Source: a virus
DNA: 25,086 nt
Strand: one strand, 5' to 3'
Virus record (IMG/VR): IMGVR_UViG_3300017727_000146
Coordinates: 1-25,086 of that record
Below are positions 1,708 through 23,134 of the stretch, piece by piece. The translations under genes were made by a program, and so were the position numbers. The notes beneath the pieces are model-generated. The model was not told where the DNA came from and ran no database searches. It was given only the letters and a program-made list of their open reading frames with translations. How positions within the stretch are numbered: the stretch's first letter is position 1; every line of letters starts with the position of its first letter.

Positions 1708-4700
1708 ATGGCAACGTCATTTAATAACCTACAGGAATATATTCTTTTTAGAGTTGAGCTAGGAAGAGAACTATTCAATGCAGAGGTTGATACTAATTTT
1801 CAAATGGTATCTAACCCATGGGTAGAGTCTAGAGTATATGAGATAGGTAACATCGTTTATCATCCTGTAGTAGTAGATGATCCTACAACAACCGGAGAAG
1901 ATCAGGTACTAGTTTGGTGGAGAGCCAACGTTAGAACTACACAAGGTGTATTTGATACATCTCAATGGGATATCATTGGAGGTATAGGTTCTGGTAAAGT
2001 TAGTGTAAAGGGTGCTAATAGTTTTGGAAAAATTAATGTTAATTCTACTAAAGCAACAGGTTCTTTGCAAAATGGTAATGATGCATTAATGCAATCAACA
2101 ATTGGTGATGATACTTTTAATCTTATTGCTGGACAAGGAATGCAGCTTCAATATAACTTAGCTTCTAAATCTATTGTTCTTATTAATACATTAGCTTCCA
2201 ATCCAGGAGAAATAAATGTAGGCCAAAATATAGGCCAAGGTGTTGGTCATCAAGATGTTTATGCTGGAAAATCTGGTGTTAATTTACAATTTAGAGGATT
2301 TGATGCAAGTAATACTACAGGTACTGCATTATCAGTTAGTACTAATAATGTACAAGATAATATTGTTTATAATTTTAATGAAGCAAAAGTTAATCTTGCA
2401 AACTTAAATGATGGTTCACCGGAGATTGGTATGCTATCCAATGTGTCTAGTGTAATTCCAAGTTCTTTAGATATTCTACAATGGAATGCAGGTTCTGGTT
2501 TATGGTCGCCAACTTCATTAGGTAGTTTAGGACAACAAAACATATATACAACTAGTTCAATAATTTTGGCGGCTGATAGAATAGTTAGATTAAATGGATC
2601 AGCTGGTAATTTACAATTTAATAGATCTTCTGATTTAAACACAGGAGTTCATATTCCAAACACTTCAAACAACCATCAATTAGAATTAAGAAATTCTTTA
2701 GCAGGTGGTGTGACTGGATTACAACATACTTTAAATAATACTATAAAAGCTAGAAGTGGTTTCTTTGGTACGGATGGATCCTATTATATTGCGATAGGTG
2801 CTCTTCCTGGTGGTTTATCTGTTGATGCGCTAAGTATATCTGCTAATAGTGAATTGTATATACCTCAACTAGAAGCTGATGAAGTATCAGCAGTTGATGG
2901 CTTTAAGATTCCTTTAGTTAATCTTAATGCTCCGACGAAAGGTAGATTTGAATCTTCATCCAGTTTTAGAGCTTCATCTATACAGTCACATACTGGAACG
3001 TGGACTGTGAGTACTTCACAAAAAGGAAGTTATAGTCTTCAGGGTGAAAATCCATTAGTTGGAATGAATTATACCACCGCTGGAATTACTTCAAGACATA
3101 ATTATTCTGGTACATTATTAGAGGGTAACAGTATGAGACTGACTTATCAGACTCCTTTAACAACTGTAGGTGTTAATACACTACAATTGATGAATAAGAC
3201 TAATGGTACTTATATTGGTAGCGATATTCAGACTACTAGTACTTCTGCTATTTTGGCGACAAAATTTATCGGATCTAATATTTCACTTCATAATAAAACA
3301 AACGCCTTAATTAATATTGGGGAAGTAATTGCATTCACAGATGAAACAGGAATACTAGTTAGTCCACAGAGAGTTGGATTATATTCCAATGTGGTAGATA
3401 CACAAAATGATGCAGAAGCTGGTACAATTATAGCAAGTCTAGTTGCCGATAGTGGTACATGGGCTGGTTACTTTGTAGGTTGTGTTAATATAGATAAAGG
3501 TGGATTAGTTCTTCCTTCTACAACTTTTGCAAATAGACCATTATGTAATGATGTAAGTGGTGGTACTACTTCAGAAAGAACTCTATGGATTAATTCTGCA
3601 AACGGACATCTATACAGAGGAACTGTTGATGTAGAAGCTACAGGTGGTGGAGGAAGTTCTACATTAGGTGGTTTAAGTGATGTAACTATTACTAATATAC
3701 AAGATGATGATCTTATTGTATATAATAGTTTTACTGGGCAATGGGAAAATGCTTCTCTTGCTGCATATAACTTATCTGTACTAGAAAATACTGATGGTAG
3801 TGCTAGTGTTCAATTAACTGATGGTAGTGGAACAAGCGATGTTGATTTAATACCAGGTACTAATGTAACCTTTGTTATTGATGAGGTTGCTGATACAATA
3901 ACAATTAATGCAACCGGCGGTGGTGGTGGTGGCGGAATTGGTGCAACAGGAGCTACAGGAGCTACAGGAGCTACCGGATTGAGTGGGGCAACTGGAATAG
4001 CGAGTATTAGTAATTCATGTACAAATAGTCAAACAAACCCTAGTTGGATTAGTTGGTCTAATGCACTGGGCGGCTCAGGTTTAAGTACTGTAGCTACTAA
4101 CACAGGTAGTGGTCTTATGTCAACTATGACCCAAGTTAATATTGGTAATGATATAGGCAATCCTTTACAATCACTACTTACTATCGGTGATCTAATTTCA
4201 TTTGAAGAGAATGTCATCTCAGGAACTGCAACTGGTGCTGCTGTGTTTGAAGTTACTGCTATAACACCAGGTGCTACATTTATTAATTTACAAGTAAACT
4301 ATATAAGTGGCGGTAATTGGACAATGCAATCCGGAGCTAACCAAGATGTAGCATATTGTATATACTTAGCAGGTGGGGTTGGTCTTACTGGATTTACTGG
4401 AGCTACAGGTATAGGTTCAACAGGATTTACAGGATCAACTGGATTTAATGGTGCTACTGGATTTATCGGAGCTACTGGTTCTGGTGCAACTGGTGCAACA
4501 GGAGCAGGTGGAATTGGTGCAACTGGATTTATTGGAGCAACTGGTTCTGGTGCCACTGGTGCAACTGGTTCAGGAGGTATTGGTGCTACTGGATTTATTG
4601 GAGCAACTGGATTTACTGGAGCTACAGGTATAGGTTCAACAGGATTTACAGGATCAACTGGATTTAATGGTGCTACTGGATTTATCGGAGCAACTGGGAT

Positions 4701-7700
4701 TGGGGCAACTGGATTTATAGGCTCAACAGGATTTATAGGCTCAACAGGATTTAATGGTGCAACTGGATTTATTGGTTCTACAGGTATAGGTTCAACAGGA
4801 TTTACAGGATCAACTGGATTTAATGGTGCTACAGGATTTAATGGTGCTACAGGATTTAATGGAGCAACTGGAATTGGAGCAACTGGATTTATTGGTTCAA
4901 CAGGATTTATAGGTGCAACTGGTTTTAATGGAGCAACAGGAGTTGGTGCAACTGGATTTGATGGGGCTACTGGTTCCAGAGGATTTACTGGTTCAACTGG
5001 TGTTGGTTTTACCGGAGCAACCGGTGTTGGTGCAACTGGATTAACAGGACAACAAGGTGCTACTGGTACAATAGGTGGGCAGGGAGCAACAGGTGCTGTA
5101 GGTCAACAAGGAGCAACAGGTCAACAAGGATTTAGAGGAACACAGGGTGCTACTGGTACGCAAGGATCAACTGGATTTACTGGTTCAACTGGTGCTGTAG
5201 GTCAGCAAGGAGCAACTGGAGCTATAGGTGGCCAAGGAGCAAGTGGATTTAATGGGGCAACAGGTGCAACGGGTGCCATAGGTCAACAAGGAGCCACTGG
5301 TACAATAGGTGGACAAGGAGCAAGTGGATTAACAGGACAACAAGGAGCAACCGGCCAACAAGGATTTAGAGGACAACAAGGAGCAACGGGAACACAAGGA
5401 TCAACTGGATTTACTGGTTCTACCGGAGCCGTAGGTAATCAAGGTGCAACTGGAGCTATAGGTGGCCAAGGTGCAAGTGGATTTACTGGTGCAACGGGTG
5501 CTATCGGTCAACAAGGAGCCACTGGTACAATAGGTGGACAAGGAGCAAGTGGATTTACTGGTTCTACTGGAGCTGTAGGTAATCAAGGAGCAACAGGTAC
5601 AATAGGTGGACAAGGAGCAAGTGGAACTCAAGGATCAACTGGATTTACTGGTTCTACTGGTGCTGTAGGTAATCAAGGAGCAACAGGTACAATAGGTGGT
5701 CAAGGTGCAACTGGATTTACTGGTTCTACCGGAGCCGTAGGTAATCAAGGAGCAACTGGAGCTATAGGTCAACAAGGAGCAACAGGAACTCAAGGAGCAG
5801 CAGGTGAACAAGGCGCAGTTGGTGAACAAGGAGCTACAGGTACAATAGGTGGCCAAGGTGCAACTGGATTTACTGGTTCTACTGGAGCTGTAGGTAATCA
5901 AGGAGCAACAGGTACAACGGGTGGCCAAGGTTCAACTGGATTTACTGGTTCTACTGGAGCCGTAGGTAATCAAGGTGCAACTGGAGCTATAGGTCAACAA
6001 GGAGCAACAGGAACTCAAGGATCAACTGGATTTACTGGTTCAACTGGTGCTGTCGGTCAACAAGGAGCAACTGGAACTATAGGTGGTCAAGGAGCAAGTG
6101 GCGCTATTGGTCAACAAGGATCAACAGGAACACAAGGAGCAAATGGTGAACAAGGATCAACTGGGTTTACTGGATCTACTGGAGCTGTAGGTAATCAAGG
6201 TGCAACTGGAGCTATAGGTAATCAAGGTGCTACTGGATTTACTGGTTCTACTGGAGCTGTAGGAGAACAAGGAGCTAATGGAGAACAAGGAATTAAAGGT
6301 GGACCAGGAGCAACGGGAGCACAAGGATCAAGTGGATTTAATGGGGCAACAGGTGCAACGGGTGTAGAAGGTGATCCAGGACTCCAAGGAGCCACAGGAA
6401 CTCAAGGAGCAGCAGGAGAACAAGGTGCTGTAGGTAAACAAGGTGCAACAGGTGCTGTAGGCCAACAAGGAGCTAATGGAGAACAAGGAGCAATTGGTGA
6501 ACAGGGAGCAACTGGTGCAGTTGGTCAACAAGGAGCAACAGGAATTAAAGGTAATATAGGTGATCAAGGAGCAAGCGGTACAATGGGAGCAACCGGAGAA
6601 CCTGGACCAGGTGGAGCAACTGGATTTACTGGTTCTACTGGTGCTATTGGTAATCAAGGTGCTCAAGGAGCTGTTGGTGAACAAGGTGCAACAGGTACAA
6701 TAGGTGGACAAGGAGCAAGTGGATTAACAGGTCAACAAGGAGCAACTGGTGCCATTGGTAATCAAGGAGCAACAGGAGCTCAAGGAGCAGCAGGTGAACA
6801 AGGTGCCATTGGTAATCAAGGAGCAACAGGAACTCAAGGAGCAATTGGAGAACAAGGTGCTATTGGTAAACAAGGTGCAACTGGTGCTGATGGTGCTATT
6901 GGTAATCAAGGAGCAACTGGTGGACAAGGTGCAACTGGTGGACAAGGTGCTATAGGATTACAAGGAGCAACTGGTACTCAAGGTTCTACTGGACCTATAG
7001 GTCAACAAGGATCTACTGGTGTAACACTAGGAGCAACTGGTGCAACTGGTGTAACTGGTGATTATGGAGGATATCTTACAGCATATACCGCTGCTGCTGT
7101 AAATCAGTCAGCTGCATTCCAAGCTAATACAGCAATCACAACAGCAATTGATTGGAAGGCAGCTTCTCAAACAATATTCTTAGCCGCTGAAGGTAATGAT
7201 CCTACATCTGGTGCTGCAATTGATTATCAGGTTAGCAATGTAGTATACTCAACCTGGAATTCAACAATCACATCTTCTGAAAATAAAGCTTTTATTAGAA
7301 TCTGGGAATATGGAGCACCGGATAAAGTAAATTATTATGAATTTGACTATAATAATATAACTACTACAAATGGAGCTGCTGGTGGTATAGAATTATCTAA
7401 AGGTAGTTACATAGGAGGTGCTGGTGTTGCTACATTTAATAAACCTTTAGTTGGATGGGGTATGAATGGTAACCGTGGTGCTGATGGTGCTACCGGTCCT
7501 ACTGGTCCACAGGGTGCAGTGGTTGGACAATCAACATTATTACAATCAAGATTTTCAGGATATAGAAATGCGGTACCTGATTGGAATGGAGCTGGAGCTA
7601 GTAATGCTAAATATGCAGTAGGTGGAACTACTCCAAATTGGGGCGCACCAAATTCTCCTACTCAAGTATACTATCAAATGGAGACGGCCCAAACGGATAC

Positions 7701-8148
7701 ATTTAATACGGAAGATATTTTAGAATCTGGTTTTCATGGGCAAGCATCACCAGGTGGAGATTTAACTGGAGGATTTTTAAGAATAACTGCATTGGCTTGG
7801 ATGTCAGATCAAGTATCTAATCCTCTTTATCTAGGTAGAGTTAGAATATCAGTAAAGAAATTTGATGTAACTCCTAATAGTGCTGGCCTTGCAACACCAA
7901 CGGATCAACCTACTGCTACAATTATAGATAACACTTCATATCAAATAGCACCAAATACTATTCCTGGTCCGTTTGGAGCCTATTCATGGAGTTTTATTCT
8001 GGAGTCGGATGGACTAACTGTGACTCGTAATGAAATCTTTAAATTAGGATTTAGTTATGAGGTAGTGGATAATGGAGGAAATCCTATTACATTAGCTACT
8101 AATGGACCGTGGGCAATTAATTGGAGGATGGAATATTGTATTATATAA
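1708..8148 (+). CDS. giant collagen-like tail fibre / receptor-binding protein
   Basis: This is a 2146-residue modular fibre. Residues 1-95 form an N-terminal module with a Trp-rich patch ([11 protein letters not shown], then WWRANV and QWDIIGG), which recalls small carbohydrate-binding modules and may attach to the baseplate. Residues 100-740 are beta-rich with Ser/Thr/Asn-rich fibre-like sequence. They include a stretch typical of phage tail fibres ([16 protein letters not shown], then [14 protein letters not shown], about 654-683). A seven-glycine hinge (about 738-744) leads to a short collagen run (745-760), a globular insert to about 890, and the main Gly-X-Y domain (about 892-1785). The C-terminal 360 residues hold another short GXY run (about 1924-1935) and a non-repetitive head ending in MEYCII, probably the receptor-binding or trimer-locking tip. 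Function as an adsorption fibre is inferred from architecture and from neighbouring baseplate genes. Confidence 0.85.
4381..7060 (+). repeat. collagen-like Gly-X-Y repeat coding region
   Basis: About 890 residues follow a glycine-every-third pattern, with Ala-Thr, Phe-Thr, Ser-Thr, Phe-Ile, Phe-Asn and Gln-Gln as common X-Y pairs and almost no proline. Two parts are visible. Bases 4381 to about 5040 are hydrophobic/threonine-rich ([15 protein letters not shown]) and contain about a dozen Gly-X dipeptide breaks. Bases about 5040-7020 are in strict triplets rich in Gln (GQQ, GNQ, GGQ, GEQ), with charged triplets toward the end. A Gly-Val-Thr-Leu break lies near 7019-7030. The DNA is made of many imperfect direct repeats, so recombination could change the length in frame. 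Confidence 0.92.
4387..4691 (+). repeat. perfect 86-bp in-frame direct repeat pair
   Basis: Bases 4387-4472 and 4606-4691 are identical, with an offset of 219 bases (73 codons). Synonymous codons vary elsewhere in the collagen region, so this identity points to a recent duplication or gene conversion. A shorter match begins near 4780. Recombination between the copies would remove exactly 73 codons without shifting the frame. Confidence 0.85.
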
Positions 8149-8757: not shown

Positions 8758-8774
8758 GTAATATATAATAAAAT
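8758..8774 (+). promoter_or_regulatory. putative late promoter box before the four-gene unknown operon
   Basis: GTAATATATAATAAAAT contains the exact core AATATATAATAAAA, whose first base (8760) is 22 bases before the ATG at 8782. It starts 15 bases after the TAG of the previous gene and heads four tightly linked genes. No SD follows. Confidence 0.55.
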
Positions 8775-10461: not shown

Positions 10462-12303
10462 ATGGGACCGGTCCAAACTGACATTAGCAGTTTAAACAGC
10501 GCAATGCCTCAATCACCAAATAGTCAATCAGGAGCAGTGCTTCCGGCTTTTGGTGGTGAATCAGTTGGTTTTGCTGCTGATGTATCAGCTGCTTATGCAA
10601 AAGGATTTTATGCACAGGCTGGTAAACCTGCTCGTGCAACTGTGCCTACTAATATGGTAGACCAGGACATTCCTGCGGCTATTGGTAATAAATATGCTTT
10701 ATTTAATTTTCAAGGATTTAATGGGGCAGGTTCTCAGGCAGCTACAAAATTTTATACTGATCAACCTGATAATATATTAATGGGAGGTGAGGGTGCAAAA
10801 GGTATTTCGCTCCCAAGCTTAATAAACTGGTTTAAAGACAAATATCCAAAAATACAATATTCACCATCAGAATTTTTATATTCTAAATATTACAAGAAGA
10901 TTCCACTTAATCATTTAATTACATTAAGAAGGTTTCCAATGCCTGTAACTGATAACATTTATAATTATCAAACAATGACTGCTTCTGAGAATGGTACACC
11001 AGATTCAAACACTGAAACAGACGCAACAATGGCTGCTGGTGTAACTGCTATAACTTATATGGGAGCAACCGCAGGTAATCAGTTGGAGGAATTATTAAAA
11101 ATGAGTTTTGGTTTAAAGTGGAAACAACTTGATGCTAAATTTGAAGAAATAGAATTAGCTAAAGGGATGAGTGGTTTTAGTGCAGGTAATATGGGAATGG
11201 GCGGAATTGCTGGTAATATTGTAAATGCCACTGTTGATGCCGGTCAAGGAACGTCATATAAAGAAAGACATGCAGCAAAATATGGTAAAGGTGCATTAAC
11301 AGGTGATAAGTTAGGTACTACATATGCCGACTTTGTATTAGGACCAGTGAATGTTGTAGATAATACAACAATTAGAGATAGAGGAATAAATTTTCAAAAT
11401 GATATGAGATTGCAATTTGAATATGAACTCAGATCTTTAGCATTTATTAATCCAAAGGTTGCTATGATTGATATTATGAGCAATATGTTAACTATGACAA
11501 CTAACAATGCATCATTTTTTGGTGGAGGTCATAGATACTATGGATCTGCTGGTGATGTTGGTACAGCATTAGGCGATACCAGTGCATTACAGAATGGAGA
11601 TTTTGTAGGATATTTTAAAAGTATTGCTTCAGATATAAAAACTGGTTTTACTGGTTTATTTGGTGGAGCTGATGGTGAATTTGATGGTAATAAGATAAAA
11701 GAAGCTTTAAAAACAATAGGAACTAATCTATTAGGAAATATGATGGGAGGGTTTTTAGGTAATATGGGAATTGGTAATACAGCAACAGCTGCTACTAGGT
11801 CTTTTATTAGCGGAGAACCAACAGGTGATTGGCATGTGACAGTGGGTAATCCTCTTAATCCTATTTGTATGATGGGTAATATGATTTGTGATAGTACTGA
11901 AATGGAATTAGGCCAAGGATTAGGATATGATGATTTTCCTATGGAAGTAAAATTTAACATAAATTTAAAACATGGTAAGCCTAGAGATAAAGGTGATATA
12001 GAAAATATGTTTAATGCAGGCCAAGGTAGAATATATGCAGCAATACAAGATGAAGCTGATTATTTAAATTTAGATACGACAGATACACCGGTGCAAACTT
12101 ACGGAAATATTCCAACGGGTACTAATGATATTCAACAGAGTTCTCAATTAGAAGGAGGTACTGCTACTAATGGATATAATGCAGGCGCACCAGCATCTAC
12201 ATTTCCTCCAGATCAAATAAAAAATATTGATACGGCGCCTGATAATTTAGGTATTCCTATTAACTTATTTGAAGGTACAAAGAAAGCTGTTGTTGATGCA
12301 TAA
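10462..12303 (+). CDS. tail tube/baseplate-like virion protein
   Basis: The 613-residue protein has a Gly/Ala-rich N-terminus (to about 70) and a segment IPLNHLITLRRFPMPVTDN (147-165) of a kind I associate with structural proteins of T4-related phages. A long central region has Met/Gly-rich stretches, and the conserved-looking C-terminal domain spans about 455-525 (GDWHVTVGNPLNPICMMGN, then DFPMEVKFNINLKHGKPRDK). That last domain has the strand-turn-strand look of tail-tube or tube-adaptor proteins. Its place just before a LysM-like adaptor, hub and spike supports a role at the tube-baseplate junction, similar in position to T4 gp48/gp54. This is inference from order and composition, not a firm family match. 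It has no signal peptide. The start follows a leader without SD. Confidence 0.6.
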   Translation: MGPVQTDISSLNSAMPQSPNSQSGAVLPAFGGESVGFAADVSAAYAKGFYAQAGKPARATVPTNMVDQDIPAAIGNKYALFNFQGFNGAGSQAATKFYTDQPDNILMGGEGAKGISLPSLINWFKDKYPKIQYSPSEFLYSKYYKKIPLNHLITLRRFPMPVTDNIYNYQTMTASENGTPDSNTETDATMAAGVTAITYMGATAGNQLEELLKMSFGLKWKQLDAKFEEIELAKGMSGFSAGNMGMGGIAGNIVNATVDAGQGTSYKERHAAKYGKGALTGDKLGTTYADFVLGPVNVVDNTTIRDRGINFQNDMRLQFEYELRSLAFINPKVAMIDIMSNMLTMTTNNASFFGGGHRYYGSAGDVGTALGDTSALQNGDFVGYFKSIASDIKTGFTGLFGGADGEFDGNKIKEALKTIGTNLLGNMMGGFLGNMGIGNTATAATRSFISGEPTGDWHVTVGNPLNPICMMGNMICDSTEMELGQGLGYDDFPMEVKFNINLKHGKPRDKGDIENMFNAGQGRIYAAIQDEADYLNLDTTDTPVQTYGNIPTGTNDIQQSSQLEGGTATNGYNAGAPASTFPPDQIKNIDTAPDNLGIPINLFEGTKKAVVDA

Positions 12304-14591: not shown

Positions 14592-16163
14592 ATGCCTTTA
14601 ATAGATTTAGGAAGTCCTTTTGGTAGTGATGGGTTAGCTCAGTTAGCTGGGCCTTTTGGTTCATACTTAGGAGGTGGTACATTTCCAAGAAGTTATGAAT
14701 TTGCTAAAAGATTTGTAGCATCTGAAAGTGCATACGGTTCTGGTACCAATGGGGTTACTTCAATGGATGATCCTACTTACCTTGGATTTACATTAATGTT
14801 TGATATTAAAAGTCCTTTATTTAATGGGGCAACATCTGGTAATACTGGTATACCAGCCACCGTACCAACTAATCCATCAACTGTTACTGGTGATACTGCA
14901 ACAGAAGGTCTTACAACTAATTTAGAAGCTCCTCCTAGTGGTGGTAGCTCTAATCCGTCTGAACCTTCAGCCGTTGCATATTTAGAAAAAATTGGTGAAA
15001 CTAATAGAGCAAATTATTTAAAAGCATTTATCCAAGGTATTCAAGAAGTTAATCAAACAAGACCTTATTATTTTCAAACAATAGTAGGATTAGAAGATGC
15101 TTGGAAAAAATCCTCAAGCTTTGATATAGACCCTTATCAAGGAACAGTGCCAGGAGAAGGTATTATTATTGGATGTCTTGAAGCTTTAGATTTAAAAATG
15201 ACAGCATTATTTAATTTATATAAAATGGCTGTTTATGATAACATGTATAAGAGGTTTGTGCTGCCTAAAAATTTAATGAGGTTTGACGTTTATGTTTATG
15301 TACAAGAAATTAGAAAATTTCAAACAGTTAGGAATTGGTTAGGGGCAGGTATTGGTGCTTTAAACACACAAGCAAAGAATGATTTTATAAATGAAAATAC
15401 CTCACAAGTTGGATTTAGATTTAGAGAATGTGAATGGGATGCAGCTGCATGTGGTAAATTATTTGGAGGGGTTACTAATGCTGGAGCAGATATTGCATCA
15501 ACTGAAATTAAATTTAGTTATGCTGTAATGGAGAACACTTCTCAATTTTCTGGCTATGACAGTAAATTAGATGAAAGTAAATTACAGAGAAGCACTGATC
15601 CAGGCTTTTTAGGTAAATTAAAACAATTTGGTAAGGATCAAGTAATGGGTCAAGTAGAAGGAGCAATTAATTTAGCAGGTAGAGCTGGTGCAAGCATAAT
15701 TTCAGGGTTTACATTTGGTAATGTGTTTGGTGCAAGAAATGATTTATTAAGTTCTATATCAAATCCACAGGCATTAGCAAATGCAGCATTAGGTGCAGCT
15801 ATACCAGGCACTCTTAGTGATGTTGGGAGTAGAAATACTACTCAAAAAATAGGTGATACTTTATTTGCAGAAGTTGCACCAGTTGGAACAGATTTAGAAT
15901 CAACGCAAAATTTTGATCCAGCTACACCAGTTGGAATAGGTTTGCAATCAATGCAAAATTTTGATCCAGCAGTACCCGTAGGAACAGGTTTGCAATCAAC
16001 TGATTTATTTCCACCAGTACCACCCGTAGGAACAGGTTTGCAATCAACTGATTTATTTCCACCAGTACCACCCGTTGGAACAGGCTTACAATCAACACCT
16101 GCATTTCTTCCGTCTGGACCAATACCTTCTACTTTAAGTGGTAATGAAAATGTATTTGACTAA
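14592..16163 (+). CDS. tube/baseplate-like structural protein with tandem-repeat tail
   Basis: The 523-residue protein begins with a Gly-rich segment and MDDPTYLGFTLMFDIKSPLF (58-77). A Pro/Thr/Ser-rich insert follows (80-128). A folded core (about 130-330) includes TRPYYFQTIVGLEDAWKK (156-173) and RFDVYVYVQEIRKFQT (230-245), resembling tail-tube-type beta domains. A helical Gly/Ala region (340-400) is followed by five copies of a 16-residue repeat (about 430-509). I infer a tube-initiator or baseplate component because it lies between hub and spike genes and its stop overlaps the spike start as TAATG. The repeat tail is unusual for such a protein. It could be a flexible ruler, a docking arm for another subunit, or exposed. 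The start at 14592 has AGAAAG upstream. Confidence 0.58.
   Translation: MPLIDLGSPFGSDGLAQLAGPFGSYLGGGTFPRSYEFAKRFVASESAYGSGTNGVTSMDDPTYLGFTLMFDIKSPLFNGATSGNTGIPATVPTNPSTVTGDTATEGLTTNLEAPPSGGSSNPSEPSAVAYLEKIGETNRANYLKAFIQGIQEVNQTRPYYFQTIVGLEDAWKKSSSFDIDPYQGTVPGEGIIIGCLEALDLKMTALFNLYKMAVYDNMYKRFVLPKNLMRFDVYVYVQEIRKFQTVRNWLGAGIGALNTQAKNDFINENTSQVGFRFRECEWDAAACGKLFGGVTNAGADIASTEIKFSYAVMENTSQFSGYDSKLDESKLQRSTDPGFLGKLKQFGKDQVMGQVEGAINLAGRAGASIISGFTFGNVFGARNDLLSSISNPQALANAALGAAIPGTLSDVGSRNTTQKIGDTLFAEVAPVGTDLESTQNFDPATPVGIGLQSMQNFDPAVPVGTGLQSTDLFPPVPPVGTGLQSTDLFPPVPPVGTGLQSTPAFLPSGPIPSTLSGNENVFD
15879..16118 (+). repeat. five 48-bp in-frame tandem repeats
   Basis: Units start at 15879, 15927, 15975, 16023 and 16071, exactly 48 bases apart. 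Each encodes a 16-residue unit; the consensus is PVGTGLQSTDLFPPVP. Units 3 and 4 are identical in DNA. Units 1-2 use QNFDPA in place of DLFPPV, and unit 5 diverges after TGLQST. Near-identity suggests recent slippage or unequal recombination, so the copy number may vary between isolates. Confidence 0.92.
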
Positions 16164-17080
16164 TGGGAAAGGTAAATCCAAAACAGTTCAACGCTGATGA
16201 TTTAAGAACTACTCAATGGGTAGGAATTGTCGAGGATAGTAATGATGACATCTTTGAAGGTAGATGTAAGATAAGAGTATATGGAAAAATGGATGATCGC
16301 GTAGATCCTGAAGATCCACAAAGTGCATACATTATTCCAACAGCCTCGCTACCTTGGTCAAGACCTCATCAGTTAATGTATGGTGGTAGTAATACTGGTA
16401 GTGGTAAATTTGAAATACCAAAATTAGGATCTATAGTTAGAGTAACATTTGATAATGGAAATTTTTATCAACCAGTGTATCATGAAAACATATACCCTTC
16501 AGATGAAACAAAGGCAGAGATAGAAGCCTCATATCAAAATTCACATGTATTAATATATGATACAGCATTTGGTTTAACTGGTGAGTTACAGGATGGTGTT
16601 TCAGAAGTAACAAATGATAGAGAAGGTGAGCATGTAAAGATTTTTTTTACAGAAGAAAAAGGCATAATGATGGACTATACTACAACAGAAGGTCCAACTA
16701 CTATTAATATAAAACCTGATAATTCAGTTGAAGTAATAAATGCAAATGGTGATACTATTGTAATGCTTAATGATGGAAATATAACATTTACTCATTCTGC
16801 TCAGTTTACAATTAATAGTGGAGCTGATACTGTAATTAATGCAGATACTAATTGTCTTATTAATTGTGTTGATGCTGTTATAAGTGCTACTGGTAAAACT
16901 CATGTAAATTCTCCTAAGATTATTTTAGGTGAACAGGGGACTGATGCGGTACTTAAAGGTACTCAGTTTATCAATGATCTTTATAATAACCATACTCATA
17001 TTGGAAATCATGGCGCACCAACTAGTCCGCCAATGGCACCAGGAAATCCTGCATTAAGTACAAAGAATACAACTGACTAA
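16163..17080 (+). CDS. gp5: baseplate spike protein, gp5/VgrG-tip-like, no lysozyme domain
   Basis: The 305-residue protein has an OB-fold domain (about 17-115: QWVGIVEDSNDD, GRCKIRVYGKMDD, and GSIVRVTFDNGNFYQPVY). A beta-helix spike with repetitive strands follows (about 160-270: GIMMDYTTTEGPT, INIKPDNSVEVINANGD, HSAQFTINSG). The C-terminal tip HTHIGNHGAPTSPP (277-290) is the usual end of this family, and its His residues are candidates for the metal ion held at spike tips. The lysozyme domain that T4 gp5 carries between OB and helix is absent, so cell-wall digestion must come from elsewhere or be unnecessary. The ATG shares one base with the previous TAA. The family call is strong because motif order and length agree. 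Confidence 0.9.
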   Translation: MGKVNPKQFNADDLRTTQWVGIVEDSNDDIFEGRCKIRVYGKMDDRVDPEDPQSAYIIPTASLPWSRPHQLMYGGSNTGSGKFEIPKLGSIVRVTFDNGNFYQPVYHENIYPSDETKAEIEASYQNSHVLIYDTAFGLTGELQDGVSEVTNDREGEHVKIFFTEEKGIMMDYTTTEGPTTINIKPDNSVEVINANGDTIVMLNDGNITFTHSAQFTINSGADTVINADTNCLINCVDAVISATGKTHVNSPKIILGEQGTDAVLKGTQFINDLYNNHTHIGNHGAPTSPPMAPGNPALSTKNTTD

Positions 17081-17489: not shown

Positions 17490-18632
17490 ATGACCGAACA
17501 AGAAATCACAGTTCAATTGAGTGATGATCCATTTGATACTAAAACAATAAAAGTTCAAGTTCCTGAAGGCACAAAATTAATGTGTAATGAAATATATGCT
17601 GCTGATGCTTTATCATTATACGGTCTTACCGATTCAACTTTACAAAAGACACAATTAATTGAAGATAATGTTTCATATACCACTAGAGGTATTGTATCAT
17701 TTATATCAGAAGATAAATCAAAGGCTTTAATTGACATAGAATCTAAATTTACTGCTTACTGTACTTTAACTAAAGAACCTGACTATATTGTAAATCAATT
17801 AGAGGTAGATATGGAAATTGATGTTAAGATCAAAACTAACCCAAAAACAGGTGATGTTGTTGCTTCTATATCTGATGCAATTAAAGAAGTTAAGTTAAAA
17901 GAAATTAAAGAAGCAATTGGTAATAAAGCTGTAGGTTTTACTGCTAAGGTTAAAGAATTAATCCACGGAGGTTACTGGGTAGATGTTGCAGGTATTAAAT
18001 GTTTTATGCCAGGTTCATTAGGAGGCTTAAATAAATTACATGATTTTAGTTTATTAGTAGGTAAAGAAATAGTTGTTATGCCAATAACATTTTCTAAAGA
18101 AAAAGATACATTAGTAGTATCTCATAGAGAATATTTAAGAACTATGATTCCTACTACAATTGAAAACTTAAATGAAACTATAAAAGAATCTAGAATTGGT
18201 TTTGTAACAGGTACTACTAAGTTTGGTGTATTTGCTGAATTTGATGAATGTTTAACTGGGCTGATACCTAAAGCAGAATTAACTGAAGAATTCCAAAAAT
18301 CTTTAGATGACAGATCTATTAAACCAGGTGACAAGATAGAATTCTGGGTTAAAGAAATTATATCTGATAGAAAAATTATATTAAGTCAATTAGGTCCTAA
18401 AATTGACCTGTGGGATGGAATAGATGAAAAATATAAACCTATGATGATATCTGAAGGTAAAGTTACTAAGATTACTTCTTATGGTGCCTTTGTCGAATTA
18501 GAGAAAGGGATCAGTGGTTTAATTCATAAGTCTAAGCTAAAGGGTGCTGATTTAAGTAAAGGTGATACAATAAATGTAAAAATTGGTAGTGTGAATGTTA
18601 GTGATCGTAAGATTACCATGAACATAGCATAA
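17490..18632 (+). CDS. four-domain S1-type RNA-binding protein
   Basis: The 380-residue protein is built from S1/OB repeats like those of ribosomal protein bS1. A 60-residue leader (1-60) precedes S1-like units at about 62-135 (divergent), 146-213 (VGFTAKVKELIHGGYWVDVA), 234-301 (RIGFVTGTTKFGVFAEF, GLIPKAEL) and 321-379 (EGKVTKITSYGAFVELEKG, ISGLIHKSKL). The last is the most canonical, with GAFV and the G-L-I-H-K-S pattern. Bacteroidota bS1 usually has six units, so this is shorter. bS1 helps recruit mRNA with unstructured A/T-rich leaders, and this phage has such leaders. A role in steering host ribosomes to phage mRNA is therefore an attractive inference. Other RNA-binding roles or a virion role are possible. 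It forms its own unit, with an A/T box before and a hairpin after. Confidence 0.85.
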   Translation: MTEQEITVQLSDDPFDTKTIKVQVPEGTKLMCNEIYAADALSLYGLTDSTLQKTQLIEDNVSYTTRGIVSFISEDKSKALIDIESKFTAYCTLTKEPDYIVNQLEVDMEIDVKIKTNPKTGDVVASISDAIKEVKLKEIKEAIGNKAVGFTAKVKELIHGGYWVDVAGIKCFMPGSLGGLNKLHDFSLLVGKEIVVMPITFSKEKDTLVVSHREYLRTMIPTTIENLNETIKESRIGFVTGTTKFGVFAEFDECLTGLIPKAELTEEFQKSLDDRSIKPGDKIEFWVKEIISDRKIILSQLGPKIDLWDGIDEKYKPMMISEGKVTKITSYGAFVELEKGISGLIHKSKLKGADLSKGDTINVKIGSVNVSDRKITMNIA

Positions 18633-18638
18633 CCTATT

Positions 18639-18666
18639 CCTGGTTTGAATATATAAACAAATCAGG
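18639..18666 (+). promoter_or_regulatory. late promoter box inside a hairpin before the amidoligase gene
   Basis: CCTGGTTTG (18639-18647) pairs with CAAATCAGG (18658-18666): nine pairs, one being G-U in RNA. The ten-base loop is AATATATAAA, the promoter core. The right arm ends 6 bases before the ATG at 18673. It may also slow read-through from the S1 gene, but no T-run follows. Confidence 0.6.
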
Positions 18667-18672
18667 AACTAC

Positions 18673-19965
18673 ATGTACACTAACGAACAATTAAATGCTA
18701 TATATGCATCCAAGATTGGATTAGAATTTGAATTCTTTGCTAATGAAGGATTAGAGGAGGTTAAAAGAAGTCTTTCTAATGCTTTAAATAAAAGAATACA
18801 AATAGAGGAAAAGGCTCATAGTGATTTTACTCCTAGTAGTGAAACATTTAAATTAGAGCCTGATAATTCTGGTGGAACTGGAATGATTGAATTGGTTACT
18901 GGGCCAATGCCGTTTGTTGAATCAAAACTTATTATTGCAAAAACTTTAAAGTGGATTCGTGAAAATGGATCCACTAATGAGAGATGTAGTATTCACGTTA
19001 ATGTAGCATTTGATGGAAAGAAATTAGGAACTCCTACAAATGTATCAAGTTTAGATATCGGAAAATTTGTATTAAATTTTAATGAAGACAAAATTTATGA
19101 AGCGTTTCCTAACAGAAAAGATTCTGTTTATGCTAAGTCAATAAAATTTATTGTTCCACTAAGTGGAATGACTCAACCGTCCCCCGAAAAGATTTCATGG
19201 AAGAACTATATGTTTGTTTCTGAAAAGTATTATGGTGTAAATTTTTCTAAGTTACCTAAGAATTATATTGAATTTAGATATCTTGGTGGAAAAGATTACG
19301 AAAAGAAGTATAACACTATAATGGATTTAACTGAACATTTTGTTATATCATTATATGAAACTTTAATGTATCCTCAATATACTGATAAAGATATTAAACA
19401 ATTAGATGCCGTTTTAGAAAAGCATAGTGGTATAGTTGAATCTTATAAAGACTATCAAACATTTAAGAAAAAATTTCCAAAGATAAAATTAATGGTTGAT
19501 CTTCAAACGTATGATCAGATAGTTGAAACATTTTATCCTAAAATGAGAGAAGAGGTTTTTAATCTTTTAACTTTAGCTGGTTTAAAAGAAGGTTTAATTA
19601 ACTATGATGCTGATACTGGAAGAATGCAATTAAAAAATGCGGAACTAATGAGATGTTTTGAAATAAAAGGAGTTGATATTGTAGACTGTAAAGTACAAGG
19701 TAATATTTTAAATTGTGATATCTTTAGTTCGGAATTAATAAATTCATCTTTATTTGAAAGTAACTTATTTGGTGTAACCGATGCTGCTGATTGCAAGATA
19801 GAAGATTCTTATGTTAGTAAAAATGTAATGTGTAAAGATTCTTATATCTTTGGGCCTAGAGGAGTATTTAGTGGAGAAATGGAAGGTGGTATTTTTAGAA
19901 AAGGTAGAGCTACTAAAATGGCAAGGTTTGAAAATACAGAAATAATTGAAATAGAAAAAATATAA
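18673..19965 (+). CDS. amidoligase (glutamine synthetase-like COOH-NH2 ligase) fused to beta-helix
   Basis: The 430-residue protein shows the motif series of the amidoligase family with a glutamine-synthetase-like fold. GLEFEF (16-21; Glu18, Glu20) binds metal-ATP, and DNSGGTG with IELVTGPMP (64-80; Glu73) follows. CSIHVNV (105-111; His108) and YIEFRYLGG (198-206; Glu200, Arg202) complete the set. Such enzymes use ATP to join a carboxyl to an amine, making peptide-like or isopeptide links on proteins or small molecules. From about 320 to 405 the sequence changes to short repeats (FEIKGVDIVDCKVQ, NILNCDIFSSELINSSLFES) that look like a pentapeptide-type right-handed beta-helix. This part could dock to a virion part or substrate. 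No classic transporter, peptidase or peptide partner lies next to it. Six bases separate it from the next gene. Family call strong; substrate unknown. Confidence 0.82.
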   Translation: MYTNEQLNAIYASKIGLEFEFFANEGLEEVKRSLSNALNKRIQIEEKAHSDFTPSSETFKLEPDNSGGTGMIELVTGPMPFVESKLIIAKTLKWIRENGSTNERCSIHVNVAFDGKKLGTPTNVSSLDIGKFVLNFNEDKIYEAFPNRKDSVYAKSIKFIVPLSGMTQPSPEKISWKNYMFVSEKYYGVNFSKLPKNYIEFRYLGGKDYEKKYNTIMDLTEHFVISLYETLMYPQYTDKDIKQLDAVLEKHSGIVESYKDYQTFKKKFPKIKLMVDLQTYDQIVETFYPKMREEVFNLLTLAGLKEGLINYDADTGRMQLKNAELMRCFEIKGVDIVDCKVQGNILNCDIFSSELINSSLFESNLFGVTDAADCKIEDSYVSKNVMCKDSYIFGPRGVFSGEMEGGIFRKGRATKMARFENTEIIEIEKI

Positions 19966-19971
19966 AATAGT

Positions 19972-20835
19972 ATGGCTAACAAGAATACTTATTGTAATGA
20001 TCCAAATGAAGCTGCATGTTTAGATGAATTAATTAAATTAGTTAATGATGAACTAACTATTGCTTGCCAAATTCCATTCACAGTTCCTAAAAAGGAAATA
20101 AACAATATTATACAAAGAGCAAAAAAATATTTTTATAAAATATATGAAGATAGTGTAGAGCAAATGTATATCGCATTACCTGCAGGTGCTTTACATAAGT
20201 CATCCTTTAAACAAGGAGTACCTTATGGAACAGGACAAGACAAAGAAGTTATAACTAATAAAGGTAATATTGATAATCCTAGAGGTATAGTTAAAATGCC
20301 TTCTAGGGTTTATTCAGTTAACGATGTATTTGAGATTGGTGGATTTAGTGGAGAGGATGGTGGATTCGGTCAAATGAGCTTTAATGCAGATGATGTAGAT
20401 TTTTCAATTGATAAATTTATATATGATGATGTTTATGGGGCAGGTATAGGTAGTGAAAATTTAATGTACTATGTTGTTAATTCATTATTTATGGATAATG
20501 CAAGACAAGTTCTTTTACCACAAATATCATATACGTTTAATAGATTAACTAAGAAGTTTAGATTTCAAGGAGAGCTTCCTAAAAATGCAGTTATATTTGA
20601 AATATTTTCTACCATTCCTGATTGTGCACTATTTGAGGATGAGGCATTTCAAAGATATGTTATAGGACAAGCTAAAATTCAATTATCTAGAATATTAGGA
20701 ACCTTTTCATTTAACCTTCCTGGTAACATTACAATTAATTATGATTTAGTACAATCTGAAGGAAGGGAAGAAGTTGATAGAATAGTTGAAGAAATTAAAG
20801 GAGACGAAGGCGTTGATTACTTTTTCACAGGATAA
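19972..20835 (+). CDS. probable virion structural protein, 287 residues
   Basis: This protein is not assigned to a named family. The N-terminal helical part (CLDELIKLVNDELTIACQIP, then IQRAKKYFYKIYEDSVEQMY, about 16-66) is followed by a beta-rich centre with Gly/Phe/Asp-rich loops. An alpha/beta C-terminus (FQRYVIGQAKIQLSRILGTF, about 221-240, then LPGNITINYDLVQSEGREEV and an acidic helix ending DYFFTG) completes it. Proteins of this shape occur among head-tail connector, neck and baseplate-associated components of large phages, so a structural role is likely. It follows the amidoligase gene by 6 bases with no separate promoter box, so the two are co-expressed. It is therefore a candidate partner or substrate of that enzyme (inference). 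Confidence 0.62.
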   Translation: MANKNTYCNDPNEAACLDELIKLVNDELTIACQIPFTVPKKEINNIIQRAKKYFYKIYEDSVEQMYIALPAGALHKSSFKQGVPYGTGQDKEVITNKGNIDNPRGIVKMPSRVYSVNDVFEIGGFSGEDGGFGQMSFNADDVDFSIDKFIYDDVYGAGIGSENLMYYVVNSLFMDNARQVLLPQISYTFNRLTKKFRFQGELPKNAVIFEIFSTIPDCALFEDEAFQRYVIGQAKIQLSRILGTFSFNLPGNITINYDLVQSEGREEVDRIVEEIKGDEGVDYFFTG

Positions 20836-20840
20836 TTATA

Positions 20841-20897
20841 ATCTGAAAGCTATATAATAAAAAGAGAATATATAATAAAAAATTAGTGCTTTCAGAT
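20841..20897 (+). promoter_or_regulatory. tandem late promoter boxes inside a start-occluding inverted repeat
   Basis: ATCTGAAAGC (20841-20850) and GCTTTCAGAT (20888-20897) are perfect 10-bp complements. The right arm includes the AT of the gp25 start codon (20896). The 37-base loop holds two copies of TATATAATAAAAA (from 20851 and from 20869, 18 bases apart); the second lies in GAATATATAATAAAAAA at 20866. RNA from upstream would contain both arms, while RNA begun at the internal boxes would lack the left arm. Confidence 0.7.
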
Positions 20898-21267
20898 GAG
20901 CAGAGGAATAAGAGATATTTATAGTAGAAGCGCTGATGCTCCTAAGTTTAATGATGATATATTAGAAGTTACCGATGGGTTATCTCAATTAATCATTAAA
21001 ATAGATAATGTTTTATTTACTAGGAAAGGTGAAGTTTTAGGAAGCCCACAAATGGGATGTAATTTAGATGAATTAATTTTTTCATTAACATTAAATGCTA
21101 ACACTATACAACAAAGAATTAATGGTCAAATTTCTGCATATTGTTTGCCAGGAACCGGTAATTATAATGTTCAATCTGAAGTAAAGTTTTTTACTAGTGA
21201 AGGAAGGAACGGGGCTTTTGTTGATATCTTTGTAAATGAACAAAGAGTTATAGGAGCTCTTTTTTAA
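20896..21267 (+). CDS. gp25: baseplate wedge protein gp25-like
   Basis: The 123-residue protein matches the small gp25/lysozyme-like wedge family, which starts wedge assembly and contacts the sheath. The hallmark central stretch LFTRKGEVLGSPQMGCNLDE (40-59) corresponds to the conserved core of gp25. It is followed by a helix (NTIQQRINGQISAY) and a final beta hairpin (VKFFTSEGRNGAFVDIFVN). Length is typical. It lies directly before the gp6/J-like gene, the usual order in contractile phages and injection systems. The ATG at 20896 is partly within the right arm of a 10-bp inverted repeat, so translation may depend on which promoter made the RNA. No SD is present apart from TTTCAG just before the start. 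Confidence 0.88.
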   Translation: MSRGIRDIYSRSADAPKFNDDILEVTDGLSQLIIKIDNVLFTRKGEVLGSPQMGCNLDELIFSLTLNANTIQQRINGQISAYCLPGTGNYNVQSEVKFFTSEGRNGAFVDIFVNEQRVIGALF

Positions 21268-21280
21268 AATAATAAAGTAA

Positions 21281-23134
21281 ATGTCATTTTTTAGTAAAAC
21301 AAGAATAAAGGCCACTCAGTTATTTGAAGATTCATTTGAATACTTGCAGCGTACCTATGGACAAGCAGTTGAAACATTTACTCCTGCTTCACCTTATGGT
21401 CAAATATTAACTGTAGTTTCTAATTTAGGAGAATTAATATTTTTCTACATAGAAGCAGTTGCCACAGAACTAAATATTTCACGAGCAAGAAATATTGAAT
21501 CTATATATGGATTATCTAGATTAACAGGCCATGATCCTACTCGAGGTATCTCGGCAAGAGGTATAATTGGATTAAGATTAAATACCAGTGCATCTACTCT
21601 TGTTACTGGTGATTATGTACAAATTATGAATGGGTCATCTTGTGAGCTAGCTCAAAACGGATTAACTTATTTTTTAAATTTCAATAGTGACTTTATAAGA
21701 TTAACTAAAAGTAATACAGCATTTGTTAATGTTGAATTAATAGAAGGTGAAAAAGAAGACCAATCATTTACTGGTAATGGGTTAACATTACAAAGTTATA
21801 ACTTAACTACAAAAAGTCCTACCGATCAATTTTTAGTAAGTGTTGAGGTTGACGGTGAACTTTGGAAAAATGTCGATTCTTTATATGATATGGGTCCTGG
21901 TGAAAAGACAGTAATGGTAAAAACTAGTGTTAACGGTGGATTAAGTATATTTTTTGGAAATAATCAATTTGGTAGACCACCTGCAGTAGGCTCTCGTATT
22001 AAATGTACTTATGTAACCACTAGAGGAACTTCAGGAAATATTGGAGGTAAGCAATTAGATTTAAAATTTTCAACACCAGCAACAGACCAGTCTGGTGAGC
22101 AAGTAGATTTAAACCAAATTCTTTCTATTAACATTACAAGAAATCCAATGTTTGGATCTAATAGTGAAGATCCGAAATTTACTAGATTAATTGCACCGTA
22201 TCAAAGTAATTCATTTGTATTAGCGAATCCTAATAATTATATTTACTATCTAAGTAAGTATGACTTTTGGTCTTTCATAGATGCTTATAATACTAAAAAT
22301 GATGAATATTTAAATGATGATAATATTATTTACCTTTTCTTAATTCCAGATATAAAAAAGAAAATAACTAGTGATTTTGATTATTTCAGTATACCTGAGA
22401 TAGAATTTGTTATGACTGCTGATGAAAAGGAAATGACTTACGAAATATTAAATTCTAGTGGAAGGCAAGTAGTTACTGCTGAAACTAGAATAATAGATCC
22501 TATTATTAAAAGATATGCTCTTAATATAGTTATAAGATGGTTTGATAATTATGATAAAGATGAAATAAGAATAGCAATAAGAAACAATTTAGACGATTAT
22601 TTTTTAAATGTTAATAGAAGAGATAGAATACCAAGATCTGACATTATTTCAATTATTGAAAATGTAGAAGGGATTGACTCTGTAAATGTATTCTTTATAT
22701 CAGAAGCAAATGAACAAGCAATAAGAGATGGTTTTTATTTTGTTCCTGTATATGGTACAGACCCTGTCACTGACCAAAAGGTATTAATTGAAAATAAAAA
22801 GATAGTATTAAAAGAAGGAGAAGATCCTAATATAGGTTTAGACAGCTTTGGTGATATTGTTATTGATAATAATGATTTAGCAATTATTAGAGGTGGATGG
22901 AAAGATAGAAATGGTACGTACTATGAACCAATCCCAGAGGCTAATAAAATTAGTTCACTTAATGTATTTTATAAAGAAGCTATTGCTGATAATCTTTACA
23001 ATAAAATTCAACAAGAAAAATATAATAGCGTTCAAAGAAATAGAGGAACTACAATTGCAACAAGTACAAATGCTAGAGGACTGAATACTGGTAGATTAGA
23101 AAATTCACCAACACTTAAAAATCTAAATAATTAA
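21281..23134 (+). CDS. gp6: baseplate wedge protein gp6 / baseplate J-like
   Basis: The 617-residue protein has the architecture of gp6/J wedge proteins. The N-terminal helical part (QLFEDSFEYLQRTYGQAVET, then PYGQILTVVSNLGELIFFYI, about 13-57) is the conserved J start. A beta-rich middle follows with the SLYDMGPGEKTVMVKTSVNG region (about 202-221) and GLSIFFGNNQFGRPP, the typical J motif. The C-terminal half has GRQVVTAETRIIDPIIKRYA (about 393-412), the dimerisation-type domain seen in gp6 homologues. The tail after about 580 is Asn/Thr-rich and probably flexible. The length is close to T4 gp6 (about 660). It follows gp25 by 13 bases and precedes a short gene by 4. Confidence 0.88.
   Translation: MSFFSKTRIKATQLFEDSFEYLQRTYGQAVETFTPASPYGQILTVVSNLGELIFFYIEAVATELNISRARNIESIYGLSRLTGHDPTRGISARGIIGLRLNTSASTLVTGDYVQIMNGSSCELAQNGLTYFLNFNSDFIRLTKSNTAFVNVELIEGEKEDQSFTGNGLTLQSYNLTTKSPTDQFLVSVEVDGELWKNVDSLYDMGPGEKTVMVKTSVNGGLSIFFGNNQFGRPPAVGSRIKCTYVTTRGTSGNIGGKQLDLKFSTPATDQSGEQVDLNQILSINITRNPMFGSNSEDPKFTRLIAPYQSNSFVLANPNNYIYYLSKYDFWSFIDAYNTKNDEYLNDDNIIYLFLIPDIKKKITSDFDYFSIPEIEFVMTADEKEMTYEILNSSGRQVVTAETRIIDPIIKRYALNIVIRWFDNYDKDEIRIAIRNNLDDYFLNVNRRDRIPRSDIISIIENVEGIDSVNVFFISEANEQAIRDGFYFVPVYGTDPVTDQKVLIENKKIVLKEGEDPNIGLDSFGDIVIDNNDLAIIRGGWKDRNGTYYEPIPEANKISSLNVFYKEAIADNLYNKIQQEKYNSVQRNRGTTIATSTNARGLNTGRLENSPTLKNLNN

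Follow-up and report, generated by a model that had tools for sequence, protein, structure and literature searches.

The window analysed here is a viral contig of 25,086 bases, and the analysis concerned one open reading frame (ORF) of its tail region together with the neighbouring genes. This ORF (18673-19965, + strand) has 430 codons and encodes a 430-residue protein, referred to below as the ligase. Directly upstream lies a gene for a ribosomal S1-like, S1-domain protein (17490-18632, +; PF00575, E 2.7e-21), and 6 nt 3' of the ligase gene begins a gene for a head-tail adaptor (Ad2)-like protein (19972-20835, +; phrog_211, E 7.7e-12). Genes for a gp25-like baseplate wedge protein (20896-21267, +; phrog_261, E 1.3e-4) and a gp6-like baseplate wedge protein (21281-23134, +; phrog_219, E 3.2e-26) follow. 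Further upstream are genes for a gp5-like hub/spike protein (16163-17080, +; phrog_37871, E 1.9e-12 and phrog_430, E 1.1e-11) and for g10 (10462-12303, +), a conserved but unnamed protein of the tail module, whose gene in huge phages frequently lies near that of the ligase and whose predicted structure has a pLDDT of 55. Judging from the encoded hub/spike-like, gp25-like, gp6-like wedge and head-tail adaptor-like proteins, the window includes a tail region from a T4-like phage with a contractile tail. The structural neighbours bear out the preliminary description, which had placed the ligase gene in a tail/baseplate cluster. Its position "between spike and gp25" was put loosely, as both of these genes belong to the cluster but lie further out than the S1-domain and adaptor-like genes that flank the ligase gene. 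An Rfam search gave no match.

Other genes of the window were also noted. A 2146-residue ORF (1708-8148, +), at which G+C rises locally to 0.49, contains long collagen-type Gly-X-Y repeats (PF01391, E 2.7e-92, in six stretches) and probably encodes a collagen-like tail fibre. Polynucleotide-kinase-like and dCMP-deaminase-like genes (40-1064, +) are found shortly 5' of the fibre and tail region, and the gene for the ribosomal-S1-like protein with S1 RNA-binding domains (17490-18632, +) sits within the tail operon.

The ligase comprises three parts: a glutamine synthetase (GS)-like amidoligase domain (residues 1-240; 18673-19392, +), supported by profile alignment, structural alignment and conservation; a helical linker (residues 241-305; 19393-19587, +), seen in the structural model; and a pentapeptide-repeat beta-helix (residues 306-430; 19588-19962, +). 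All four motifs quoted in the preliminary description were found, namely GLEFEF at residues 16-21, IELVTGP at 72-78, CSIHVNV at 105-111 and YIEFRYLGG at 198-206, and the conservation of their residues across 68 homologues indicates that they are not due to chance.

Searched alone against Pfam, the window protein gave no PF12224 (Amidoligase_2) match at E up to 1 and no pentapeptide match. None of the Pfam, NCBIfam and PADLOC models names the protein, and no family library searched here names the family. However, in a tblastn search the window protein found relatives of 32-42% identity among uncultured huge phages (462-735 kb) and gave a further, partial hit at E 5e-6 to the cultured Agrobacterium phage Atu_ph07, whose homologue AUZ94978 exceeds the PF12224 gathering score (30.2 versus 22 bits). 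Amidoligase_2 was seen at E up to 1 in 7 of the 17 aligned homologues. When a profile of the N-terminal 240 residues was compared by hhalign with an alignment of eight recognised phage amidoligases, the E-value was 9.9e-7 and the DxS, E, HxN/H, R, KY and EFR motifs of the two lined up, whereas control alignments compared with the N-terminal or the full-length ligase profile gave E-values of 0.25, 0.32 and 0.91; all of these values refer to one comparison and are not database-wide. Thus the proposed link to Amidoligase_2 held by way of the Atu_ph07 homologue and the profile-profile alignment but not by a direct Pfam match. Because the direct HMM test failed for the window protein, we file its sequence as that of a divergent Amidoligase_2 relative within the GS-like amidoligase superfamily and not as a formal PF12224 member. 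Assignment to the enzyme class of GS-type amidoligases is well supported.

Alignment to Escherichia coli GlnA and two relatives was not significant (E 0.44), and its sole aligned piece pairs E18/E20 with the ExE motif of GS. Comparison of the N-domain profile with PDB sequences gave weak kinase matches only, so the link to GS rests on the fold and on Amidoligase_2.

An AlphaFold2 model of the ligase, built with 68 sequences, had a pLDDT of 91.3 and a pTM of 0.84. The results showed that glutamine synthetases topped the list when the model was compared with the PDB by Foldseek (best E 7.6e-6); whole-chain TM-scores in this list were low because the match is limited to the N-terminal domain. VIA-align to glutamine synthetase gave a Z of 12.0 over 182 residues (model residues 1-235). 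Among viral models, the best match was a full-length relative (TM 0.90), below which the named ones were mostly phage proteins annotated as amidoligase. The GS-like fold that had been expected is therefore present in the model. The proposed catalytic residues are spread over four strands of the GS-type sheet, where most of them form i,i+2 pairs: E18/E20 on strand 13-23, H108/N110 on strand 106-113 and E200/R202 on strand 199-205, with E73 on strand 71-75. In the model this arrangement fits a single active-site face and would suit a GS-type metal site.

Conservation was assessed in 68 homologues of 27-100% identity. The result showed that G16, E18, E20, D64, S66, E73, K131, E138, R148, Y153, K185, N190, E200, R202 and G205 are invariant (68/68), while H108 is kept in 65 and N110 in 64, so the metal and phosphate residue set of the GS-like amidoligase superfamily (ExE, E, HxN/H, ExR) is conserved in the ligase family. 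Three homologues (L204:9986-11389, L217:1203-2609 and L218:9986-11389) have Q-F-S in place of H-x-N at the putative active site, and in these the activity may be altered or lost. Median pairwise dN/dS, calculated by the Nei-Gojobori method, which is rough and saturates at larger distances, was 0.12 in the GS domain, close to the values of the adaptor (0.13) and the gp6-like protein (0.14), and higher in the helix (0.23) and the linker (0.50). By this measure, constraint within the protein is strongest on the GS domain and weakest on the linker. It is very probable that the ligase is catalytically active.

The C-terminal part consists in the model of short regular strands between residues 307 and 429, and pLDDT in this block is mostly 92-97. 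A profile of this part matched McbG-like proteins, MfpA and other pentapeptide-repeat proteins in the PDB (E 8.5e-7), and the Pfam family Pentapeptide_4 was detected in homologues. The pentapeptide-like repeats of the preliminary description are thus real, but the length of about 85 residues given for them was too short, the helix spanning residues 306-430. The beta-helix is fused in the aligned relatives, but no recognisable beta-helix was found in the Atu_ph07 homologue. One homologue matched HalA weakly, and this match covers the pentapeptide region only. DNA mimicry of the kind shown by gyrase-binding pentapeptide proteins was set aside, as acidic residues outnumber basic ones in the helix only slightly (21 D/E versus 16 K/R). 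Since pentapeptide repeats commonly serve as binding surfaces, the most likely role of the helix here is that of a rigid arm by which the enzyme attaches to a protein partner.

The ligase gene is preceded by a conserved promoter-like element, GAATATATAAACAAAT (18647-18662, +), 26 nt 5' of its ATG. At up to 3 mismatches, GAATATATAAACAAAT had 8 matches against 2.2 expected (0/100 shuffles). Exact copies of AATATATAA number six in the window, at + strand positions 8760, 10435, 17079, 17453, 18648 and 20867; each precedes a gene start by 22-37 nt and is on the coding strand, and there is none on the other strand of the window. A looser form of the motif was present within 60 nt upstream in 82 of 127 ligase genes compared to 1.9% of random stretches. 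The T4-type late promoter TATAAATA was not enriched (3 versus 6.9 expected), and a sigma-70 scan showed no excess. Elements of the AATATATAA type are probably the late promoter of this phage lineage, and late expression of the ligase is likely. The gene had been credited with its own promoter-like hairpin. A conserved element does lie upstream; however, the CCTG/CAGG arms flanking it are kept in near relatives and decayed in distant ones, where the AT element stays, so that it is better described as the GAATATATAAACAAAT element, and it is common to the tail genes and not the ligase gene's own.

The ligase family is common, with at least 500 relatives in one IMG/VR scan, and essentially phage-restricted, as a search of 84,980 cellular genomes found it in two short contigs only. 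It is present in records of 634, 636, 642 and 735 kb, lengths that agree with those of the four curated phage genomes given as the largest in PMC7162821. A weak family match (E 6e-5) was also observed in the cultured jumbo phage Salicola phage SCTP-2, to the 606-residue hypothetical protein ASV44140 (L409:7939-9759), for which no Pfam match was found.

The gene surroundings of the ligase were compared in 131 non-redundant loci picked by the ligase gene. In the clade of the window, the order S1-ligase-adaptor-gp25-gp6 is nearly constant, and in the huge-phage clade the ligase gene remains near g10 or the adaptor gene though strand and order vary. As these loci had been picked by the ligase gene, the inverse test was run from the adaptor and from g10. 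Among 80 loci picked by the adaptor, which form one fairly close clade, 76 had enough upstream sequence; the ligase gene was present in all 76 and adjacent in 75. Among 77 loci picked with a g10 query from a huge phage, 55 contained the ligase gene despite shuffled order and strand. Of the other 22, three are truncated close to g10 and the rest belong mostly to one separate branch of the g10 tree. In this tree, a quick one with some long branches, ligase-positive loci occur on both deep branches. Twelve records without a ligase gene next to g10 were searched for it at other positions and gave no match, in a search that had no positive control and included several fragments. The same g10-g13-hub module without a detectable ligase gene was observed in L380, L381, L392, L398 and their relatives, and these phages provide a natural comparison set for substrate searches. 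The existence of a branch that has the same tail proteins and no ligase gene in the sequence at hand implies that the tail type does not require the ligase. From these distributions the gene looks old and stable in the tail lineage but dispensable for some phages with the same tail proteins. The linkage to the tail genes may reflect shared expression instead of a shared target.

The position of the Atu_ph07 homologue was also considered. According to PMC6102473, the virion proteins of Atu_ph07 confirmed by mass spectrometry cluster in CDS 170-215 among others, and gp198 and gp204 are among its head proteins. From its spacing to the portal AUZ94980 and the prohead core protein AUZ94986, AUZ94978 would be gp196, inside this virion-protein-rich cluster.

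The ligase resembles several known systems in part. Phage members of Amidoligase_2 (LUZ24 gp18, phiEco32 phi32_84 and Atu_ph07 AUZ94978) have motifs collinear with those of the window protein over approximately 160 residues and share its predicted fold neighbourhood. However, the window ligase, unlike the PF12224 phage members, has a fused pentapeptide beta-helix, and whereas the LUZ24 and phiEco32 amidoligases adjoin GATase, COOH-NH2 ligase and ATP-grasp genes, it adjoins tail genes; none of this usual amidoligase company was seen near it, its neighbours being structural. Glutamine synthetase (4bax, 8fbp) has the same catalytic sheet fold, at approximately 14% identity in the structural alignment and with no significant sequence similarity, and the ligase has an extra beta-helix where GS has the rest of the enzyme. 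Pentapeptide-repeat proteins (MfpA, McbG-like proteins, QnrB1) share the repeat sequence and the all-beta helix with the C-terminus of the ligase, in which the helix is a domain of an enzyme. The closest structural counterpart among viral models is A0A6J5PQ40, an unannotated protein of an uncultured phage, the predicted structure of which matches the ligase over its full length (TM 0.90) at 24% identity.

On the reading that we prefer, the gene product would be a carboxylate-amine ligase of the glutamine synthetase fold that depends on ATP and metal and is expressed together with the tail genes. A carboxylate would be phosphorylated in the metal site formed by E18/E20, E73, H108 and E200 with R202, and then joined to an amine to form an amide, while the C-terminal beta-helix would dock the enzyme on its protein partner. 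The target would most likely be a structural protein of the phage's neck or baseplate, acted on during assembly, which would gain an amino acid or a peptide or have an isopeptide bond closed. That the target is a protein is moderately likely. The failure to find the GATase partner in nine related records, the phage restriction of the family and the place of AUZ94978/gp196 inside a virion-protein cluster, taken together, favour a structural protein; a virion protein as target nevertheless stands at somewhat below even chances, and the same reserve applies to the whole explanation of a tail-co-expressed ligase acting on a phage structural protein during assembly, which is the best that we can offer. 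More tentative still is the idea of a dedicated tail-maturation amidoligase that docks by its helix on a neck or baseplate intermediate, cross-links or covalently modifies virion proteins and is passed on with the tail module in marine phages as well as the largest known phages. The literature searched contained no case of an ATP-dependent amide ligase that modifies a tail or baseplate, and phage amidoligases appeared in it only as annotations and in hypotheses on the cell wall and superinfection.

The nearest recognised phage amidoligases (of LUZ24, phiEco32 and RIO-1) indeed occur in cassettes read as peptidoglycan modification (PMC5498523, PMC10580990), and the ligase might likewise act on the host envelope, perhaps on the side chains of peptidoglycan, and so block superinfection or ease exit. 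This is unlikely, as the gene follows tail genes and not a metabolic cassette and the fused beta-helix suggests a macromolecular partner. In addition, GATase_6 was found in 0/9 related records, some of them fragments, compared to its detection in 14/14 control genomes, and PF14395 was also found in 0/9, though no control genome gave a signal for it. Many GS-fold ligases, such as GlnA and glutamate-cysteine ligase, take small-molecule substrates, and the ligase could produce a small molecule or a modified amino acid for use at another point of the infection, with its place in the tail operon serving late expression only; the lack of metabolic partner genes among the neighbours and the stability of the linkage through rearrangement make this improbable.

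A similarly low probability is given to the reading in which the protein is structural, for instance as part of the virion, or acts as a chaperone, and has the amidoligase fold but no catalytic activity. Its position in the tail cluster and the loss of H108/N110 in three homologues would fit such a role, but the invariance of the metal-site acids and R202, the retention of H108 in nearly all homologues and the strong constraint on the GS domain argue for an enzyme. RimK adds glutamates to ribosomal protein S6, and modification of the translation machinery or of the adjoining S1-like protein in a RimK-like manner was considered because the S1-domain gene lies directly 5' of the ligase gene in the window clade and in LR756500. 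It is very improbable, since most huge-phage loci have tail genes beside the ligase gene, and an S1 gene was not found there.

The preliminary description thus held as an observation, and its interpretation was borne out in part. Three features of this family are new: it is fused to a beta-helix, it is linked to a tail module, and it occurs in records of 462-735 kb. A few examples of covalent phage particle maturation are known, among them the HK97 capsid, which cross-links itself. The ligase raises a concrete substrate question within the assembly pathway, and selective protein ligases might be obtained from the family. If the ligase acts on the tail of its own phage, as its conserved position hints, it would represent a new kind of finishing step for virus particles.
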